A stretch of 64,000 nucleotides of DNA. It comes from Arcanobacterium haemolyticum. GTDB taxonomy: Bacteria; Actinomycetota; Actinomycetes; Actinomycetales; Actinomycetaceae. Position numbers and translations under genes: made by a program. The notes under the pieces are model-generated. The model saw nothing but the letters and a program-made list of their open reading frames with translations, searched no databases and was not told the DNA's origin. The DNA is taken from contig JADYUX010000001.1 in assembly GCA_021532125.1 (NCBI GenBank), positions 124,001 to 188,000 on the forward strand. Reading direction: 5' to 3'. Below are positions 9,218 through 51,187 of this stretch, one piece after another (positions within the stretch are counted from its first letter, which is position 1; each line of letters opens with the position of its first letter).

Positions 9218-12200
9218 CTAGCGCTCAACGAGCTTGGCCAGCTCACTCATTCGCTGCGAAACAACCGTCGTCACGCCTTCCTCCTGCATCGTCACCCCAT
9301 ACAGGCAATCCGCGATCTCCATTGTGCGTTTTTGGTGAGTGACGACGAGAAGCTGGGACGACTTCTGCAATTCCTTAAAGATGTCGAGTAGGCGCGACAA
9401 ATTCACATCGTCAAGAGCCGCCTCGACCTCATCCATGACGTAGAACGGCGAGGGACGAGACATAAAGATCGCGACAAGGAAAGCAATAGCCGTGAGAGAA
9501 CGCTCGCCACCCGACAGCAGCGACAACCGCTTGACCTTCTTCCCTGGAGGCCGCGCCTCGATATCAATGCCCGTCGTCAACGGAGAATCCGGATCCGTGA
9601 GAACCAGACGGCCCTCACCACCGGGAAACAACGTGGCGAAGGTGTGCTCGAACGCCTCCGCAACATCCGCCAAGGCAGAACGAAGAACAGAATCAAGCTG
9701 AGTGTCGAGGTCACGCACGAGGCGCAAAAGATCCTCACGAGACTTCTTCAAATCGGCAAGCTGACCGGCAAGGTATTTCTGACGTTCTTCAAGGGCCGCA
9801 TGCTCCTCCAAAGCGAGAGGATTAATCTTCCCGAGACGTTGCAAATCACGCCGAGCTCGCGCCAGACGTTTCTCCTGCTCCTCACGCACATACGCGACCT
9901 CCCCATCCTCGGTAGGAACGAGGACGTGAGGACCATATTCGTCGACGAGCGTACCGGCCTCCGTGCCGAGCTCCTCCAAGCTCTTCGCAGCGAGCTGCTC
10001 GAAACGAAGCCTCAACTCCGCACGCGCCAATTCCTGACGATGCTGCGCATCATCCAAACGCCGTGAACGCTCCGAAAGCTCGTCAAGCCGCGAACGAGCC
10101 TCACGCAAAGCAAGCGCCCGCGACGCATTCAATTCCTCCGCAGCCTCACGCGCACGGCCAACACGCTCTCGAATCTCACGCACCGCATCCAAAGCTCGCT
10201 GCGCCTGATCTCCAATCAGACCAGCACGTGCACCAGCCTCTGAACGCCGCAAGGCAGCGCGTTCCTCACGCTCAATACGTTCAGCCAACGCCTGAGCACT
10301 GCGCTCAAGAGAATCAGCACGCCCAAGGATCGCCCTCAGACGCTCCTCACGCGTACGCAACGCAAGACGCGCCTCCGTCTCAACGCCACGCGCCTGCCGA
10401 GTAGCCTCATGCGCGCTATCGCGAGCCGCCGTCGACGCCGCGAGCTTCTCAGCAAGAGCCGTCGGATCAGCACTCGCCGCATCAAGCTGAACAGCAAGCT
10501 CATCGGCGGTGGCGCGCTGGCGGCCGATGTCATCGGCCAGCCCCTCGCGGCGCTCGGCTGTACGTTCCACTTCCTCGCGAGCGGCCGCGAGGGCTTGGCG
10601 CAGCGCGCCAAGGCGCGCCACCGCCGCCGCCATCTCTGCATCTCGTGCCGCGAGCTGTGCGCCGGAGGTGTCAAAGGCTGCCTGAGCCGCTGTGAGAGTG
10701 CTGTCAGCGGTTACCCGTGCTTGTGCCGCTGCCTCAAGTGTGTCCGCAGCGTTGTCGACGTGTTCCTTGGCGTCGATGTATGCGCTGTGGCGGGCGAGCG
10801 TGGATGCCGCAGTTTTCTGCCCTCCTGCAGCCCGATGCGCTTCGAGGACGTCACCGGTTGCGGTGACCACGCGGCGTGCTCCTCCTGCGAGGAGGTGGCG
10901 GGCAGTCACGAGGTCACGGGCAAGAATCGTGTCGGCGAGGATGGCGCGAATGGGCGCGGAGATGTCGTCGGTTGCGGTAATGGCATCGAGGGCCAGGATG
11001 GCGGCGTCGGCCTCGATTGTGCTCAATGCTGCACGTGCGCGGTTTAGTGCCGCATCGCCCTGTGCGGGGTGTGCATCCGTCTCCTGGGCTACGACGACGT
11101 CCAGTCGGCCGGCGTCCGCTTCCCTGACAGCACGGAGTGCATCGACCGCCGCTTCAATCCCATCGACGACGATTCCTTCTGCCCCTCCGCCGAGGGCAAC
11201 CTCAAGGGCCGCTTCCCAGCCTGCTGCCACACTGAGCTTGTCGCGGACAAGCTCACCAACGTGTGCACCCACGGCCCACGCAGTGGCATCTGCCGGTTCA
11301 AGTGAGAGCTCCAAGGCGTCCGCCGTCGCCGTCCACGACGCGAGGGCCTCTCGGGCAGCTTGTTCGTCGCGTCGAGCCTGAGCGAGCGCCTCCTTCGCTT
11401 GTTCGAGTGCTGCCGAGTTAGCTTCGTGGGTGTCACTCAGGCCGTCGTCGCCGTCACTTCCAGCGACGATCTCCTCCTCAAGTCGAGCACATTGTTCTGC
11501 CGATTCCTCGGCACGCGTCGTCGCCCCGTGCCAAGCTGTCTCAACGCGAGCCGATTCCTGCTCTAACGCTTCAAGACGTGATTTCGCTGCAGCAAGCCGC
11601 GCAGCCACACGGGCAGCATCTTCTTTGTGATCAGCGAGGGCACGGGACAGTTCCGCCACCTCACGTTCGAGACGACGCTCTACCGCTTCTTTTTCTTCAC
11701 GGTCGGCGATGGCAGCAGTAAGCTCGTCGCTGGCGCGAGTCACATCCTCCTGAAGTGCCTCTTCCTCGGCACGGGCTGCCTTTGCACGTTCCAATAAGTC
11801 TTCTGGGCGTTCGCCGCGTCCAACATTCGTCGTCACGCTCGCGAGCGAACGAACCCGCTCGCGAGCAAGTTGATGTAACGAGCGGTAGCGTTCCTCCAAT
11901 GTTGAGAGCCGCTCCCACATCTGGCTCAGACGAGCACGCTCGGGATGCGCGTCGCTCTCAGCCTTGTCGAGCACCGCAAGCTCATCACGAACCTCATGCA
12001 ATGCCTTATCAAGTTCTTTGCGGCGCTCGAGAATCTCCTCGTCATTGACTTCTTCAGCCTGCATACGTGCCTGCTGCTGCGCAATATCGTCGGCCAGGAG
12101 CCGCGCTTTGGCATCGCGTTCCTCGGCTTGAACGATCTGAGCACGCCGGGCCGCCTCGGCTTGCTTCGCCAATGGGCCAAGCTGCCGCCGCAGCTCCGCA

Positions 12201-12784
12201 GTTAAATCCTCAACTCGTGTGAAGGACGCCGTCATAGATTCGAGTTTGCGGAGAGTCCGTTCCTTCCGGCGACGATGTTTGAGGACACCCGCCGCTTCTT
12301 CGACGAAGCCGCGCCTATCTTCCGGGGTTGCGGTAAGCACCTGATCCAGGCGTCCTTGCCCGATGATGACGTGCATTTCTCGGCCCATACCGGTATCCGA
12401 AAGCAACTCTTGAATGTCGAGGAGCCTGCATGAGGTTCCGTTGATCGCGTATTCCGATCCTCCCGAGCGGAACAGTGTTCGCGAGATCGTCACCTCTGAG
12501 TAGTCAATCGGAAGAACGCCGTCTGTGTTGTCGATGGTCAGGGAGACTTCCGCGCGACCAAGAGCCGGGCGCTTCGACGTACCAGCGAAAATGACGTCGG
12601 CCATTGATCCGCCGCGAAGATTCTTAGCACCCTGCTCCCCCATGACCCAAGCGAGTGCATCAACAACGTTTGATTTCCCTGAACCGTTCGGACCAACGAC
12701 ACAATTAATCCCCGGCTCGAAGCGCATCGTCGTCGATTTCGCGAACGACTTGAAGCCGCGTAGGGTGAGGGATTTCAGGTGCAC
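9218..12784 (-). CDS. smc: Chromosome segregation protein SMC
   Basis: 1,188 residues, the bacterial SMC length. Condensin ATPase that compacts and separates chromosomes with ScpA and ScpB, which are not in this window. Walker A GPNGSGKS (31-38), two long coiled-coil arms (about 170-500 and 680-1010), a hinge around 505-670 (WAVGAHVGELVRDKLSV), the ABC signature LSLLSGGERSL near the C-terminus and Walker B PSPFYVMDEVEAALDD. The start is the GTG at 12784 (HLKSLTLRGFKSFA), six bases after a TAGGGT -10 element and without a ribosome binding site. Confidence 0.97.
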   Translation of the reverse strand: MHLKSLTLRGFKSFAKSTTMRFEPGINCVVGPNGSGKSNVVDALAWVMGEQGAKNLRGGSMADVIFAGTSKRPALGRAEVSLTIDNTDGVLPIDYSEVTISRTLFRSGGSEYAINGTSCRLLDIQELLSDTGMGREMHVIIGQGRLDQVLTATPEDRRGFVEEAAGVLKHRRRKERTLRKLESMTASFTRVEDLTAELRRQLGPLAKQAEAARRAQIVQAEERDAKARLLADDIAQQQARMQAEEVNDEEILERRKELDKALHEVRDELAVLDKAESDAHPERARLSQMWERLSTLEERYRSLHQLARERVRSLASVTTNVGRGERPEDLLERAKAARAEEEALQEDVTRASDELTAAIADREEKEAVERRLEREVAELSRALADHKEDAARVAARLAAAKSRLEALEQESARVETAWHGATTRAEESAEQCARLEEEIVAGSDGDDGLSDTHEANSAALEQAKEALAQARRDEQAAREALASWTATADALELSLEPADATAWAVGAHVGELVRDKLSVAAGWEAALEVALGGGAEGIVVDGIEAAVDALRAVREADAGRLDVVVAQETDAHPAQGDAALNRARAALSTIEADAAILALDAITATDDISAPIRAILADTILARDLVTARHLLAGGARRVVTATGDVLEAHRAAGGQKTAASTLARHSAYIDAKEHVDNAADTLEAAAQARVTADSTLTAAQAAFDTSGAQLAARDAEMAAAVARLGALRQALAAAREEVERTAERREGLADDIGRQRATADELAVQLDAASADPTALAEKLAASTAARDSAHEATRQARGVETEARLALRTREERLRAILGRADSLERSAQALAERIEREERAALRRSEAGARAGLIGDQAQRALDAVREIRERVGRAREAAEELNASRALALREARSRLDELSERSRRLDDAQHRQELARAELRLRFEQLAAKSLEELGTEAGTLVDEYGPHVLVPTEDGEVAYVREEQEKRLARARRDLQRLGKINPLALEEHAALEERQKYLAGQLADLKKSREDLLRLVRDLDTQLDSVLRSALADVAEAFEHTFATLFPGGEGRLVLTDPDSPLTTGIDIEARPPGKKVKRLSLLSGGERSLTAIAFLVAIFMSRPSPFYVMDEVEAALDDVNLSRLLDIFKELQKSSQLLVVTHQKRTMEIADCLYGVTMQEEGVTTVVSQRMSELAKLVER

Positions 12785-12796
12785 GGATTTACCCTA
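12785..12796 (-). promoter_or_regulatory. Leaderless-type promoter of smc
   Basis: On the minus strand TAGGGT (12796-12791) is followed by AAATCC and then the smc GTG at 12784, the spacing expected when transcription starts at the start codon. No clear -35 is seen. Confidence 0.5.
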
Positions 12797-12870
12797 GGCC
12801 ACAAAAGGCAAACGAGGGAAGTCCGCTGGCGTGTTCGCAACGATACAACCCTTCAATCCACGTGCCTCCA

Positions 12871-12882
12871 TACAATAGCCAC
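12871..12882 (+). promoter_or_regulatory. Leaderless-type promoter of the YdcF-family gene
   Basis: TACAAT (12871-12876) lies six bases before ATG 12883 and there is no Shine-Dalgarno sequence. It is back to back with the smc promoter, 75 bases away. The -35 region is unclear. Confidence 0.5.
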
Positions 12883-13923
12883 ATGGTTCTTTACCTCCCG
12901 TCTCTCGTCTTTCTCGGGCTCACGATTGCCTCGTCGATTCACGATCCGAGAAAAGTGCGCAACGGCATCTTCCTCCTCACGGCGATCTTCCTCGCAATCC
13001 CCGGACTTCTCGCCGCGCTACTCTCGCGCCTCTCATCGCTCATCCCCAACTCAGAAATATCCGCCTGGGCGTTCATCGGCATCTTCCTCGTTGTCTTCCT
13101 CGGTGTCTTCTCCCTTGGAATCATGCTCATCCTCAACGGCCTCACAGTCGTCCGCCGCGAGGGGCGTTCCCTTGGCCATCTGCTCTCCCTCATCCTCGGC
13201 GTCGGCATCATCGGATACATCGTCATCGGGATCGTCATGGCCGCAAGCTACCGCTCCAGCGGCCCATTACCATCGATTTTCGGGATCTTCTTCACCCTCG
13301 TCTTCCCGATCGCTTGGCTCGGTTACGGCCTCCTCGCTTATCTCCTGTGGTCCTGGATTTACGGTATTCTCGCCCCACGGATCGGCGGAGCCGTCGATGC
13401 CGTCATCGTCCTCGGCGCCGGACTGCGCCACGGTAACCTCACCCCTCTCCTCCGATCTCGGGTCGAACGTGGCATCGAATGGGCACGCCGCCCTGGACTC
13501 AGCAACAACCACCCCGTCCTTGTCATGTCCGGCGGCCAAGGCCCTGACGAGCCGCGTGCCGAGAGCGAAGCCATGGCCGAGTACGCCGAGAATCAAGGCT
13601 TCCCAAGCGCACTCCTCGTCGTCGAAAACCACTCCACAACGACAAACGAAAACCTCACGTATTCGTCGCAAATCCTCCGCGAGCGCGGCGACCTCACTCA
13701 GGTCGCTGTCGTCACAAGCAATTTCCATGCCTTCCGAGCTGCGCTTCTCATGCGTTCCCTCAACATTCCCGGGTATTCAGTCGGCGCTCCGATTGCCCGC
13801 TACTACTGGCCGACGGCGATGCTCCGCGAATACGTCGCCGTGCTTCGTGACAATATGCGAATCAACGTCGTGGGCCTTGTGATTTCGTGCCTTCCTCTTG
13901 TCATGAGCCTTCTGTCGCTGTGA
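12883..13923 (+). CDS. YdcF/ElyC-family (DUF218) membrane protein
   Basis: 346 residues. Five or six N-terminal hydrophobic helices (residues about 3-165) precede a DUF218 domain (about 170-330) with the family motifs AVIVLGAGLRHGNLTPLLRSR, LVMSGGQGPDEPRAESEAM, NHSTTTNENL and VAVVTSNFHAFRA. DUF218 proteins such as SanA and ElyC are linked to envelope integrity, but the biochemical reaction of this actinobacterial form is not established. The start ATG 12883 is preferred over an in-frame GTG seven codons upstream because a -10 element lies just before it. Divergent from smc. Confidence 0.85.
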   Translation: MVLYLPSLVFLGLTIASSIHDPRKVRNGIFLLTAIFLAIPGLLAALLSRLSSLIPNSEISAWAFIGIFLVVFLGVFSLGIMLILNGLTVVRREGRSLGHLLSLILGVGIIGYIVIGIVMAASYRSSGPLPSIFGIFFTLVFPIAWLGYGLLAYLLWSWIYGILAPRIGGAVDAVIVLGAGLRHGNLTPLLRSRVERGIEWARRPGLSNNHPVLVMSGGQGPDEPRAESEAMAEYAENQGFPSALLVVENHSTTTNENLTYSSQILRERGDLTQVAVVTSNFHAFRAALLMRSLNIPGYSVGAPIARYYWPTAMLREYVAVLRDNMRINVVGLVISCLPLVMSLLSL

Positions 13924-47816: not shown

Positions 47817-47890
47817 GCGAGTGTAGCTCAATGGTAGAGCCTCTGCCTTCCAAGCAGATTACGCGGGTTCGATTCCCGTCACTCGCTCCA
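47817..47890 (+). tRNA. tRNA-Gly(TCC)
   Basis: Acceptor GCGAGTG/CACTCGC, D arm with GCTC/GAGC, anticodon loop CTTCCAA (anticodon TCC), T arm CGGGT-TCGATTC-CCGT, and encoded CCA. Its 3' end is the likely integration site of the adjacent prophage, whose integrase starts 167 bases downstream in the same direction. Confidence 0.96.
47866..47890 (+). other. Putative attL core in the 3' end of tRNA-Gly
   Basis: The T arm and acceptor 3' strand, TTCGATTCCCGTC then ACTCGCTCCA, are a typical core for tyrosine-integrase attachment and lie just before int. The exact boundaries need the right junction, which is outside the window. Confidence 0.55.
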
Positions 47891-47896
47891 CTAGGA

Positions 47897-48056: not shown

Positions 48057-49364
48057 ATGGATAGCGACACGCCTACCCCGCAGCCTAAAAAGAATCACCG
48101 GACACGCTACGGCGAAGGATCTTTCCGCTACTCCACCTCACGAGGCCTATGGGTAGGCCGAATCGACACCGGCGAATACTCCCCCAAGGGCACACGCATC
48201 GTCATCGCAGTCTCAGCACGCGACGAAGACAAAGCCTGGCAAAAATTCGTCGCTGCCCGCAAAGACTTCCAGCTCAACGGCTACACGCTCGGACTCAAAA
48301 CCAATCAGACTGTGCGTGGATGGGCTGAGGAATGGCAGAAATCGAGACGGGGAACGGTGCGCGCGAAAACGCTCCAGACCGACGCCTCAAACATCAAAAA
48401 CTGGATCATTCCCACCATCGGTGGCACAAAGCTCTCGAAGCTCACGGCAGCACACATGAGGGCTGTAGGTGACGCTCCGCTAGAGGCTGGACGCTCACTC
48501 TCAACAGCCAATAGTGCTCAGCGCACCCTCTCGAAGCTCCTCCACGCCGCTGTCGCTGAGGGGTACAAGATCCCGGACATGATTTTCGCCGCCGAGAAAA
48601 AGCCTCTTGGGAAGACGACACGGACGGCCATGTCTATCGACGAACTCAAAGCCGTCATGGGCAAGGCGATTGAGCTGCACCCAGATGCTGTGCGTTTCGT
48701 GCTTGCCATCGTGTACGGGTCACGGCAATCCGAGGTGCTGGGATTGACATGGGATGACGTGAGGGTCGCTCCGCAGGCTCCTGACGCGCTTGTGGTGGGC
48801 ACGATTCGGCTTTGGCGGCAGGTTCAGCAGCTCCCCTACGACAAAGAACGGCGAGCCTTCCAAACGAAGCTCGCTGACGATGTGGAGCATATCGTCGACG
48901 CTTGGCATTTTGTGCCAACGAAGACTCTTGCCGGGCAGCGAGAGTTGCCGCTCATCGCGCCTGTTGCACTCATGCTCGAGCGTTGGCGGACGATGTGCCC
49001 CGCCGGCGCGGGGAACCCACACAACCTCGTTTTCCCACGCATCTCAGGCAAACCGCAATATATGGGCTATCCACGCTCAAAGCGTGCCGACATGGCCGAA
49101 TGGAAAGCCCTGCAGAAGGCGGCCAACGTGTACAAACGTCGCCCCAACCCTGCGGTTGAAGGCGACGAGGGAGATTTCTACCTGCTGCACGAGGCACGAC
49201 ACTCCATGATCTCGCTACTCGCGGAGGCTGGCGCGCCACGCCACGTCATCGAAGCGCTCGTCGGCCAGTCCAAGCTCGTCGACTCGTACGTCCACATCTC
49301 GGCTGAGGCGGCTGGAAGTGTCCTGAGTGACGTATTCATGCCGCTACTGCCGTCAGGAGAATAA
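48057..49364 (+). CDS. int: Phage integrase (tyrosine recombinase)
   Basis: 435 residues. N-terminal arm-binding domain (about 15-75, TRYGEGSFRYSTSRGLWVGRI), SAM-like core-binding domain (about 80-180, VRGWAEEWQKS), catalytic domain with Arg in YGSRQSEVLGLTW (near 222), HEARH (HxxR near 378-381), GQSK and Tyr in VDSYVHI (near 410). It integrates phage DNA at the tRNA-Gly site. ATG 48057 is weakly preceded by AGGGAA. It is the first gene inside the prophage. Confidence 0.94.
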   Translation: MDSDTPTPQPKKNHRTRYGEGSFRYSTSRGLWVGRIDTGEYSPKGTRIVIAVSARDEDKAWQKFVAARKDFQLNGYTLGLKTNQTVRGWAEEWQKSRRGTVRAKTLQTDASNIKNWIIPTIGGTKLSKLTAAHMRAVGDAPLEAGRSLSTANSAQRTLSKLLHAAVAEGYKIPDMIFAAEKKPLGKTTRTAMSIDELKAVMGKAIELHPDAVRFVLAIVYGSRQSEVLGLTWDDVRVAPQAPDALVVGTIRLWRQVQQLPYDKERRAFQTKLADDVEHIVDAWHFVPTKTLAGQRELPLIAPVALMLERWRTMCPAGAGNPHNLVFPRISGKPQYMGYPRSKRADMAEWKALQKAANVYKRRPNPAVEGDEGDFYLLHEARHSMISLLAEAGAPRHVIEALVGQSKLVDSYVHISAEAAGSVLSDVFMPLLPSGE

Positions 49365-49367
49365 GAG

Positions 49368-49540
49368 GGATATCCCCGCATCGCGGGGTCGGCCAGGCTC
49401 TCGGGAACGCGAACCACACCTGCGAAGGATCATCCCCGCGGATCATCCCCGCGGATCATCCCCGCATTGCGGGGTGGTTCCTTCGATGGCCCCGACCATG
49501 TCGTGTCCGCCGGGATCATCTCCGCATAGGCGGAGTGTAG
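49368..49540. CRISPR. Small degenerate CRISPR-like repeat cluster of type I-E architecture
   Basis: Three 28-base repeats at 49368, 49453 and 49513, plus a partly expanded one at 49427. Each begins GGAT(C)AT and holds a short palindrome: CCCCGC-GCGGGG (49374, 49460) or CTCCGC-GCGGAG (49520). The start-to-start distances are 59 (49368 to 49427) and 60 (49453 to 49513), close to the 61-base period of type I-E arrays, leaving spacers of 31 and 32 bases. The 13-mer GGATCATCCCCGC is triplicated at 49427-49465. The second stem change is compensatory. No cas gene is seen nearby. Direction unassigned. Confidence 0.55.
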
Positions 49541-49612
49541 TGCTTGCCGCCCCTAGAAATCGGAAGCGGAGCGGCAAGCCAGTAGAGTCAAAGACTCATT
49601 TACGATTGTAGC

Positions 49613-49825
49613 GTGTATGAGGTGTTTCTATCGCGTAGTGATATTGCGATTATGTATGGGGTCGATCCGTCGCAGGTGAGTCGCTGGATGCGTGGCACAC
49701 CGCTTGAACCGGATGTTGTAATTGGCGTTAATTCGCGGAGCGTTGAGGGTTATCGTCGTGCGCGTGTGGAGGCGTGGCGTGCGTCGCTTCCTAAACCGGG
49801 TGAACGAACAGATCTTAAAAAGTGA
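49613..49825 (+). CDS. Small HTH DNA-binding protein
   Basis: 70 residues. The N-terminal part SRSDIAIMYGVDPSQVSRWM is a compact helix-turn-helix (helix 2 about 8-15, recognition helix 19-25), followed by GTPLEPDVVIGVN and a basic C-terminus RRARVEAWRASL. The start is GTG 49613 with no clear ribosome binding site. It could be an excisionase-like protein or a small regulator. Position downstream of int and the repeat cluster fits either role; the sequence does not decide. Confidence 0.6.
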   Translation: MYEVFLSRSDIAIMYGVDPSQVSRWMRGTPLEPDVVIGVNSRSVEGYRRARVEAWRASLPKPGERTDLKK

Positions 49826-49979: not shown

Positions 49980-50273
49980 ATGCAGACCATCGTCTACACC
50001 ACCGCAGAATACGCCCAGCTCAACGACGAGCAGCACATCACCATGGATGACACACGCGAGCGATTCCGCTACGACCTCACACAAGCCCTCGCAGGAAACA
50101 TCGACGACTACGACATCGACGCCATCCTCGACGACTACGTCGCCTACATCGAAACCGTCGACGACGAAGGACACGTCATCCTCCGCGCATCAGGCTTCGT
50201 TGCACGCACCAACATCGACCCCGCCTTCGACGAGGCAGCCTTCTGGGACCTCGTCGCCCGCTGCGAAAAGTAA
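49980..50273 (+). CDS. Small acidic protein of unknown function
   Basis: 97 residues, strongly acidic (MDDTRERFRYDLTQALAGNI, DDYDIDAILDDYVAYIETVDDEG). No recognised family. GGAAAG lies just upstream of the ATG. It is between the HTH gene and the second recombinase. Acidic small phage proteins often mimic DNA, for instance to block host nucleases; that is speculation here. Codon use is heavily GC3-rich (many GAC, CTC, ATC). Confidence 0.6.
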   Translation: MQTIVYTTAEYAQLNDEQHITMDDTRERFRYDLTQALAGNIDDYDIDAILDDYVAYIETVDDEGHVILRASGFVARTNIDPAFDEAAFWDLVARCEK

Positions 50274-50344: not shown

Positions 50345-51187
50345 ATGTCCATCTCCATCGACGACGCCGCACACGCCACATACCTCAACGGGCTACGCCG
50401 CACCCCCAACGCAATCTACAACGCCGCAGCCTGGGGACGATTCCTCGAAACACGAGGCCTCGACTGGCTCGAAGCAACCCGCGAGCACTACTCCGCCTTC
50501 CTCGGCGAACTCAACGCACGCGGCCTCCGCCCCTCCACCATCGCCACCTACATGTCCGACATCCGCGCCCTCTACCAATGGGCAATCACCTGCGGATACA
50601 CCAACATCGACCCCACAGCAGGATTCAAAGCCCCACGCCGCTCACAATCCTCCCCATGGGAATGGATCGGAGTCGACACCGCAAGGAAGGTCCTCGAAAC
50701 CGCACAAGCAGAACCCGACCAAAACCTACGCATGGGCATCCTGCTACCTCTCCTCGTCACGCTACGACGAGCAGAAATGTGGCGCGCCACCCGCGAGGAT
50801 GTCCGCCAACTCGACACCGGCATGTGGGTCATGCGCACCGACCGCGCGAAAACCGCCACCATCCAAGACCTCGCCATCCCCGAGGATCTCGCACAAGACA
50901 TCCTCGCCTCACCTACCCGCAAGCTCCTCACGGTCACTCCAGCACGCCTCTACCAGCTCATGGACGACTTCTCCGTGCGGCACGATTTCCCGAAAATCCG
51001 TCCGCACATGCTCCGAGCCACCTGCATCACCGTCGCCATCAAGGCAGACCTCGCGCCCTCGGACATCATGACCTCTGCCGGTCACCACTCCCTCGCACTC
51101 ACTGCACGCTACGACCTAGCCATCGCGAGCGTAGAGCGAGGCATCTCACCCCACGTCTACACCTACCTCACACAGAAAGCCGCCTGA
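50345..51187 (+). CDS. Second tyrosine recombinase/integrase
   Basis: 280 residues. N-terminal SAM-like domain (YNAAAWGRFLETRGLDWLEA and SAFLGELNARGLRPSTIATY, about 20-90) and catalytic domain with Arg in LVTLRRAEMWR (near 140), HMLR (near 221-224), GHHSLALTARY with the nucleophile Tyr near 255. All catalytic positions look present, so it is probably active. It lacks the arm-binding domain of the first integrase and is XerC/D-sized. RBS is poor. Role unknown: excision, resolution of dimers, or DNA inversion. Confidence 0.85.
   Translation: MSISIDDAAHATYLNGLRRTPNAIYNAAAWGRFLETRGLDWLEATREHYSAFLGELNARGLRPSTIATYMSDIRALYQWAITCGYTNIDPTAGFKAPRRSQSSPWEWIGVDTARKVLETAQAEPDQNLRMGILLPLLVTLRRAEMWRATREDVRQLDTGMWVMRTDRAKTATIQDLAIPEDLAQDILASPTRKLLTVTPARLYQLMDDFSVRHDFPKIRPHMLRATCITVAIKADLAPSDIMTSAGHHSLALTARYDLAIASVERGISPHVYTYLTQKAA

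Follow-up and report, generated by a model that had tools for sequence, protein, structure and literature searches.

A putative prophage-borne type I-E mini-CRISPR array with degenerate repeats and a spacer matching phage terminase genes

Small CRISPR arrays that are not accompanied by cas genes have been described in viruses, such as the Sulfolobales viruses SPV1 and SPV2 (PMC6858448), and phage and prophage mini-arrays were reported by Faure et al. (2019), as cited in PMC6858448 and PMC7099407. Phage mini-arrays have been proposed as inter-virus weapons, and few of them can be linked to a temperate phage of bacteria, to a type I-E system that resides in the same host, and to a foreign target that can be named. 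Related elements are the phage-encoded repeat mimics called Racrs (PMC10651486) and the CreA/CreR mini-CRISPRs of CRISPR loci (PMC9458426, PMC12737573). In a prophage that extends beyond the window (the whole stretch of Arcanobacterium haemolyticum DNA that was analyzed, 64,000 nt), we examined three repeat units that surround two spacers. With a probability of roughly two in three, we interpret this locus as a cas-less type I-E mini-CRISPR array with two spacers that lends crRNAs to the host Cascade for use against competing phages.

Position and anatomy of the array

The prophage has a length of about 32.8 kb and is flanked by an exact 44-bp repeat of the 3' end of tRNA-Gly. Its gene content includes lysis, tail, portal, terminase, and repressor genes, and the array has the integrase gene on one side and a small helix-turn-helix (HTH) gene on the other (Table 1). 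The array is cas-less within the prophage, and the single cas locus of the genome, identified by a whole-genome search for Cas8e, is about 283 kb away. The same prophage contains a second, shorter tyrosine recombinase gene (50345-51187, 280 aa) 1 kb past the first integrase. Near its right end is a gene (L064 15207-16310) whose 367-aa product has an N-terminal HsdR domain of the type I restriction kind; this gene adjoins repressor-like and IrrE-like genes and is possibly further defence cargo.

Table 1. Coordinates of the array and of neighboring prophage features in the window
Feature	Position	Strand	Remarks
attL	47851-47894	plus	tRNA-Gly 3' end; exact copy at 80586-80629 in extended coordinates (L064 16586-16629)
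Tyrosine integrase of the prophage	48057-49364	plus	Pfam PF14659/PF00589, PHROG 1; stop 2 bp before unit 1
Unit 1	49367-49393	minus	last repeat in crRNA direction; GCCGA-CCCCGC-GAT-GCGGGG-ATATCCC
Spacer 2	49394-49425	minus	32 nt; TCGCAGGTGTGGTTCGCGTTCCCGAGAGCCTG
Tandem duplication	49427-49452	minus	26 nt; two extra copies of the 13-mer GCGGGGATGATCC
Unit 2	49453-49479	minus	degenerate I-E repeat; AACCA-CCCCGC-AAT-GCGGGG-ATGATCC
Spacer 1	49480-49511	minus	32 nt; GGCGGACACGACATGGTCGGGGCCATCGAAGG; encodes GGHDMVGAIEG
Unit 3	49513-49540	minus	first repeat in crRNA direction; CTACA-CTCCGC-CTAT-GCGGAG-ATGATCC
Small HTH protein, excisionase/regulator-like	49613-49825	plus	PHROG 597/66, weak matches

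On the minus strand of 49367-49540, i.e., within 174 bp, three degenerate type I-E repeat units are arranged around the two spacers. All three units have a 6-bp stem, with loops of 3 nt in units 1 and 2 and of 4 nt in unit 3, and the unit 3 hairpin has a folding energy of -10.4 kcal/mol (z -4.2). The period is 60 nt from unit 3 to unit 2 and 60 nt plus the 26-nt duplication from unit 2 to unit 1, and the locus thus shows the type I-E architecture of a Cas6e hairpin, an 8-nt 5' handle, a 32-nt guide, and a period of about 60-61 nt. The base before the 32-nt spacer is C in the case of spacer 1 and T in the case of spacer 2. An initial sequence-only reading had described three units and a triplicated 13-mer (49427-49465), and both are found at these positions, with the plus-strand 13-mer GGATCATCCCCGC at 49427, 49440, and 49453, and GGATCATCTCCGC at 49513. 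The compensatory stem change that it had noted, from CCCCGC/GCGGGG to CTCCGC/GCGGAG in unit 3, is real. Of the spacer lengths of 31 and 32 bases, the 32 nt hold for one spacer, and the other also has 32 nt instead of 31. The proposed common GGAT(C)AT part corresponds to the handle ATGATCC in crRNA sense, which is complete in units 2 and 3 only, as unit 1 reads ATATCCC.

The stem and handle units in the array exceed chance expectation: the combination of a perfect 6-bp stem, a 3-5 nt loop, and a handle similar to ATGATCC is found at two array sites 60 nt apart and at one other site in the 64 kb, and Markov-shuffled windows of 64 kb contained a mean of 0.3 such stem and handle occurrences. The fold of the entire array RNA (z -2.2) is mainly due to long-range pairing and was set aside as evidence. 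No sigma-70-like promoter was found within 49300-49760, and no host-like leader was recognized at the array. Rfam gave no match to the prophage array, which is uninformative as the host array also has no match. Among the best matches of the whole locus in a blastn search against phages, there was only tRNA-Gly similarity.

As the units directly follow the integrase stop codon and form hairpins, they could in principle be arm-type sites of the integrase, which was the alternative offered by the sequence-only reading, or the hairpin of an integrase gene terminator. However, the att core (attL in Table 1) is about 1.5 kb away with the whole integrase gene in between, the units do not flank this core as short direct repeats, and no T-run terminator was found at the array. 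Moreover, 13 nt are exactly shared with the host CRISPR repeat, which arm sites would not copy, and one spacer has a phage match (see below). Arm-type sites are thus disfavored, and either form of this explanation is hardly credible.

Relation to the host type I-E locus and to other arrays

The same contig (L033) contains a type I-E locus with the gene order cas3-cas8e-cse2-cas7e-cas5e-cas6e-cas1-cas2, as assigned with Pfam, and downstream of cas2 a host array with about 13 repeats GTTGACCCCGCGTGAGCGGGGATGATCC at a 61-nt period (L033 about 12195-12960). The prophage units share the stem with this host repeat, and units 2 and 3 also share its full ATGATCC handle, whereas the 5' pentamer and the loop differ. 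In total, 20-22 positions match over 27-29 aligned positions per unit, and the identity is about 71-76% over 28-29 aligned positions. The 13-mer GCGGGGATGATCC is common to the host repeat and the prophage units and represents the conserved half of the host repeat. Cas6e recognition and the crRNA of I-E systems need the stem and the handle. As exactly these parts have been kept, their conservation looks like selection for processing and not like plain decay, and the prophage repeats appear to be compatible with the CRISPR-Cas type of the host.

The alternative to such selection is that part of a host CRISPR array was captured, carried along by recombination, and is now decaying without a present function. 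The degeneration of the repeats, the altered handle of unit 1, the tandem slippage of the 13-mer ahead of spacer 2, and the fact that a promoter is not visible are all in line with such a fragment. However, under decay, the stem and handle should not be spared when the loop and the 5' pentamer diverge, and a compensatory pair change is also unexpected. The spacers also remain exactly 32 nt long, and a relative prophage has a comparable three-unit array. A decaying fragment is therefore rather unlikely in our view.

The relative prophage is that of genome G213, which belongs to another genus with its own I-E locus and contains the closest integrase relative (55% identity). Its three hairpin units (L065 10905-11075; G213:C55 about 113904-114074) are about 60-64 nt apart, and their stems and handles are near, yet not identical to, the repeat GTGTTCCCCGCGCCCGTGGGGATGAGCC of that host. 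No target was found for the spacers of this similar, weaker, three-unit degenerate I-E-like array, which is therefore no more than suggestive; when compared with phages, they gave weak and unrelated phage matches only. A translated pattern of its spacer B matched a common freshwater-phage motif, which was rejected as a chance match because of a threonine in place of the serine of the spacer and because there was no fitting flank. Integrase relatives were searched for by peptide pattern in IMG/VR and GTDB contigs, and none were found.

A two-repeat I-E pattern retrieved 48 stretches from IMG/VR, mostly with 2-6 repeats and without a cas homologue in the stretch examined, and several of these mini-arrays adjoin head, tail, or integrase genes. 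Phage-borne I-E mini-arrays are thus not rare, and some of the contigs may be mis-assigned host DNA. In one IMG/VR contig (L096 5380-5561), a two-repeat I-E array lies about 200 bp from an integrase gene, a neighborhood as in the prophage described here.

In the host locus, cas3 (L033 2550-5464) is split inside the helicase into two overlapping frames, one with the HD part and one with the C-terminal part, which is either a real frameshift or a draft error. Unless it is a draft error, interference in this strain may be off, and targets would then be bound but not destroyed. Upstream of cas3, there is a degenerate two-unit mini-array (L033 2229-2330 and 2435-2470; G000:C9 about 456228-456470). 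Its guide TAATGCGTCTTAGAGA matches two tandem pre-cas3 sites, AATAATGCATCTTAAAG and AATAATGCATCCTAAAG, with seed matches of 10/11 and 9/11, which makes it a candidate for a CreR-type autorepressor of the host I-E system.

The leader-distal spacer of the host array (L033 12891-12923) matches a prophage gene at 50163-50191 in 25/29 positions beside AAG, and an AA-type motif therefore fits this system. This match probably goes back to an earlier contact with a related phage, since escaped by mismatches. With a host spacer against this phage type, the prophage would profit from a decoy of the Racr kind, i.e., from repeat-like RNA that occupies Cas6e and Cas7 and thereby blocks host immunity. Two I-E Racrs have been shown to be inhibitory (PMC10651486), and the extra handle copies of the array could supply more binding sites. 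However, Racrs are defined as solitary units, and arrays as well as mini-arrays were excluded from that search (PMC10651486), whereas two properly sized spacers are present here, one of which matches a phage gene. A strict Racr, which is a solitary repeat with no partner within 100 bp, was rejected, as three units are found in 174 bp, and a decoy function in the wider sense is also quite doubtful.

Spacers and candidate targets

In one reading frame, spacer 1 encodes the peptide given in Table 1, and we searched IMG/VR with a degenerate pattern for GHDMVGAIE. The exact spacer peptide is encoded in three IMG/VR contigs (L059-L061), in each case in the same gene and the same frame (VEANGGHDMVGAIEGNAAKAE), and PHROGs assign this gene as terminase large subunit. 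The DNA of these contigs matches spacer 1 in 28/32 nt beside an AAC motif (preceded by CCAA-C). As the peptide was fixed by the pattern, only the 7 positions outside the pattern count as independent, and 6 of these agree. A reversed control pattern gave no match, and the exact terminase peptide pattern had none in GTDB contigs.

When spacer 1 alone was used in blastn, the top matches were the terminases of the Mycobacterium phages Paphu and Gwendoluna (E = 2), with 26/32 matches over the guide in the case of Paphu TerL, preceded by CAA-C. The IMG/VR and Mycobacterium phage terminases are homologous (35% identity), and the spacer match falls on homologous residues. The AA-C motif is also present at the terminase site of a prophage in the same bacterial family (G025, L067), where guide positions 1-5 and 7-11 agree and the first mismatch is at guide position 6; Cascade leaves guide position 6 unpaired (PMC5904413). 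All spacer 1 terminase sites are preceded by AA, followed by C as the base before the 32-nt guide. The terminase of the carrier prophage is a different protein without a spacer 1 match, and the degenerate spacer 1 pattern, with up to 2 mismatches, found no other site in the whole genome. No one fact is decisive. As the best blastn E-value was 2, the argument depends on the combination of gene, frame, motif, and homologous position. Taken together, these matches make it very likely that a phage terminase large subunit gene is the target of spacer 1. As I-E interference in E. coli requires >18 bp of pairing (PMC5904413), the 28/32 match can suffice.

For spacer 2, nothing convincing was obtained by blastn against phages and plasmids, by three translated patterns in IMG/VR, or by a 3-mismatch scan of 213 family genomes. 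A lone pattern match (L084) was rejected, as its flanking motif was wrong and its reading frame implausible. The 26-nt duplication separates spacer 2 from the predicted Cas6e cleavage site of unit 2 and thus displaces this spacer by 26 nt. As two handle copies precede spacer 2, the guide of the second crRNA would begin in the duplicated handle, and spacer 2 is probably mis-set or inactive owing to these extra copies.

The guide of the second crRNA that is predicted after the unit 2 cut starts with CGGGGATGATCC, which equals the 12 nt at the end of each host repeat, and in the host repeat this stretch is preceded by GAG. GAG is one proposed PAM for E. coli I-E (PMC5904413). It is conceivable that the handle triplication is functional and that the second crRNA guides the host Cascade to the CRISPR array of the host itself, where it would hamper transcription as an RNA-guided anti-CRISPR, but we regard this as highly improbable.

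Partial guides could also make the array a crRNA-like regulator of the CreR/CreA kind that steers the host Cascade to repress cas or phage genes. Degenerate mini-arrays are known in that role (PMC9458426, PMC12737573), such a mini-array seems to be present before cas3 in this host, and spacer 2 has a 10/11 seed match at 49670 in the neighboring HTH gene. However, this site has CCG and not an AA motif, and we estimate that chance alone would give about 0.5 seed matches of this kind in the prophage. CreR control of cas by a guide that matches the cas operon promoter was rejected, as neither prophage spacer matches the region before cas3. A regulatory role of this kind is very unlikely.

Proposed action and comparison with known systems

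In the mini-array interpretation that we prefer, the minus strand of the array would be transcribed, and the host Cas6e would cut at the unit hairpins, as suggested by the conserved stem and handle. crRNA 1 would then consist of the 8-nt handle AUGAUCCC, the 32-nt guide, and a hairpin, and could be loaded into the host Cascade. It would direct Cascade, with Cas3 where intact, to the matching terminase large subunit gene of distantly related phages, so that the lysogen would exclude competitor phages while the prophage's own terminase would be spared. Repeat degeneration outside of the stem and handle may help the array to resist spacer loss by recombination. Such resistance has been shown for the degenerate ectopic repeats of CreTA (PMC9458426), which offers a possible reason for the degenerate prophage repeats.

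This interpretation is supported by the host I-E locus on the same contig, the maintained stem and handle, the exact length of 32 nt of both spacers, and the terminase matches of spacer 1. Points against it are that neither a sigma-70-like promoter nor a host-like leader was recognized, that only one of the two spacers has a target, that this target is imperfect (28/32), that cas3 is split, and that the handle of unit 1 is changed. The sequence-only reading had suggested two comparisons. That of the 28-mer with host I-E repeats was positive, as the array with a 61-nt period on the same contig shares hairpin and handle, and that of the spacers with phages was positive for spacer 1 (phage terminase) and negative for spacer 2. 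Its view of a type I-E phage mini-array thus gains support from the host repeat match and from the phage match of spacer 1.

If this interpretation is true, a dormant virus could use the immune system of the bacterium to keep competitors out, and the three elements that are rarely linked in phage mini-arrays (temperate phage, I-E system of the same host, and nameable foreign target) come together in one genome. If such degenerate repeats are processed, searches that demand 90% or full repeat identity miss a class of arrays, and small arrays could generally be kept stable by the degeneration of their repeats.

Compared with the I-E array of its host, the prophage array has the stem, the handle, and the 32-nt guide architecture in common, but it has no cas genes, no recognizable leader, only two spacers, and degenerate repeats. 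Racrs (PMC10651486) and the prophage array are both phage-encoded mimics of host CRISPR repeats, including those of type I-E, yet Racrs are solitary repeats without spacers, whereas the prophage array has three units and two full-length spacers. With the CreA/CreR mini-CRISPRs (PMC9458426, PMC12737573), the array shares ectopic degenerate repeats around a spacer that appear compatible with the host Cas6 and Cascade. However, CreA and CreR have partial matches to a local promoter and are part of the CRISPR locus, whereas the prophage array is phage-borne and its spacer 1 matches a phage gene lengthwise.

The anatomy fits the phage mini-arrays of PMC6858448 and PMC7099407. Like the virus-borne mini-arrays (PMC6858448, PMC7099407), which have 1-2 spacers, the prophage array with its two spacers is cas-less and is located in a viral intergenic region. 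As in these mini-arrays, the repeats fit the host system and a spacer is aimed at another virus and not at the carrier, and as in phage mini-arrays, no host-like leader is seen. Published mini-arrays mostly target close relatives, whereas the terminase targeted here is distant from the carrier's kind. In the account given in PMC7099407, the repeats of phage mini-arrays are identical to those of the host, which is a description and not a functional requirement, whereas the prophage repeats are strongly degenerate and include a compensatory stem change. Although it differs from the published account in how closely its repeats match those of the host, the prophage array is, judged by its sequence features, a phage-borne mini-CRISPR array in most defining features.
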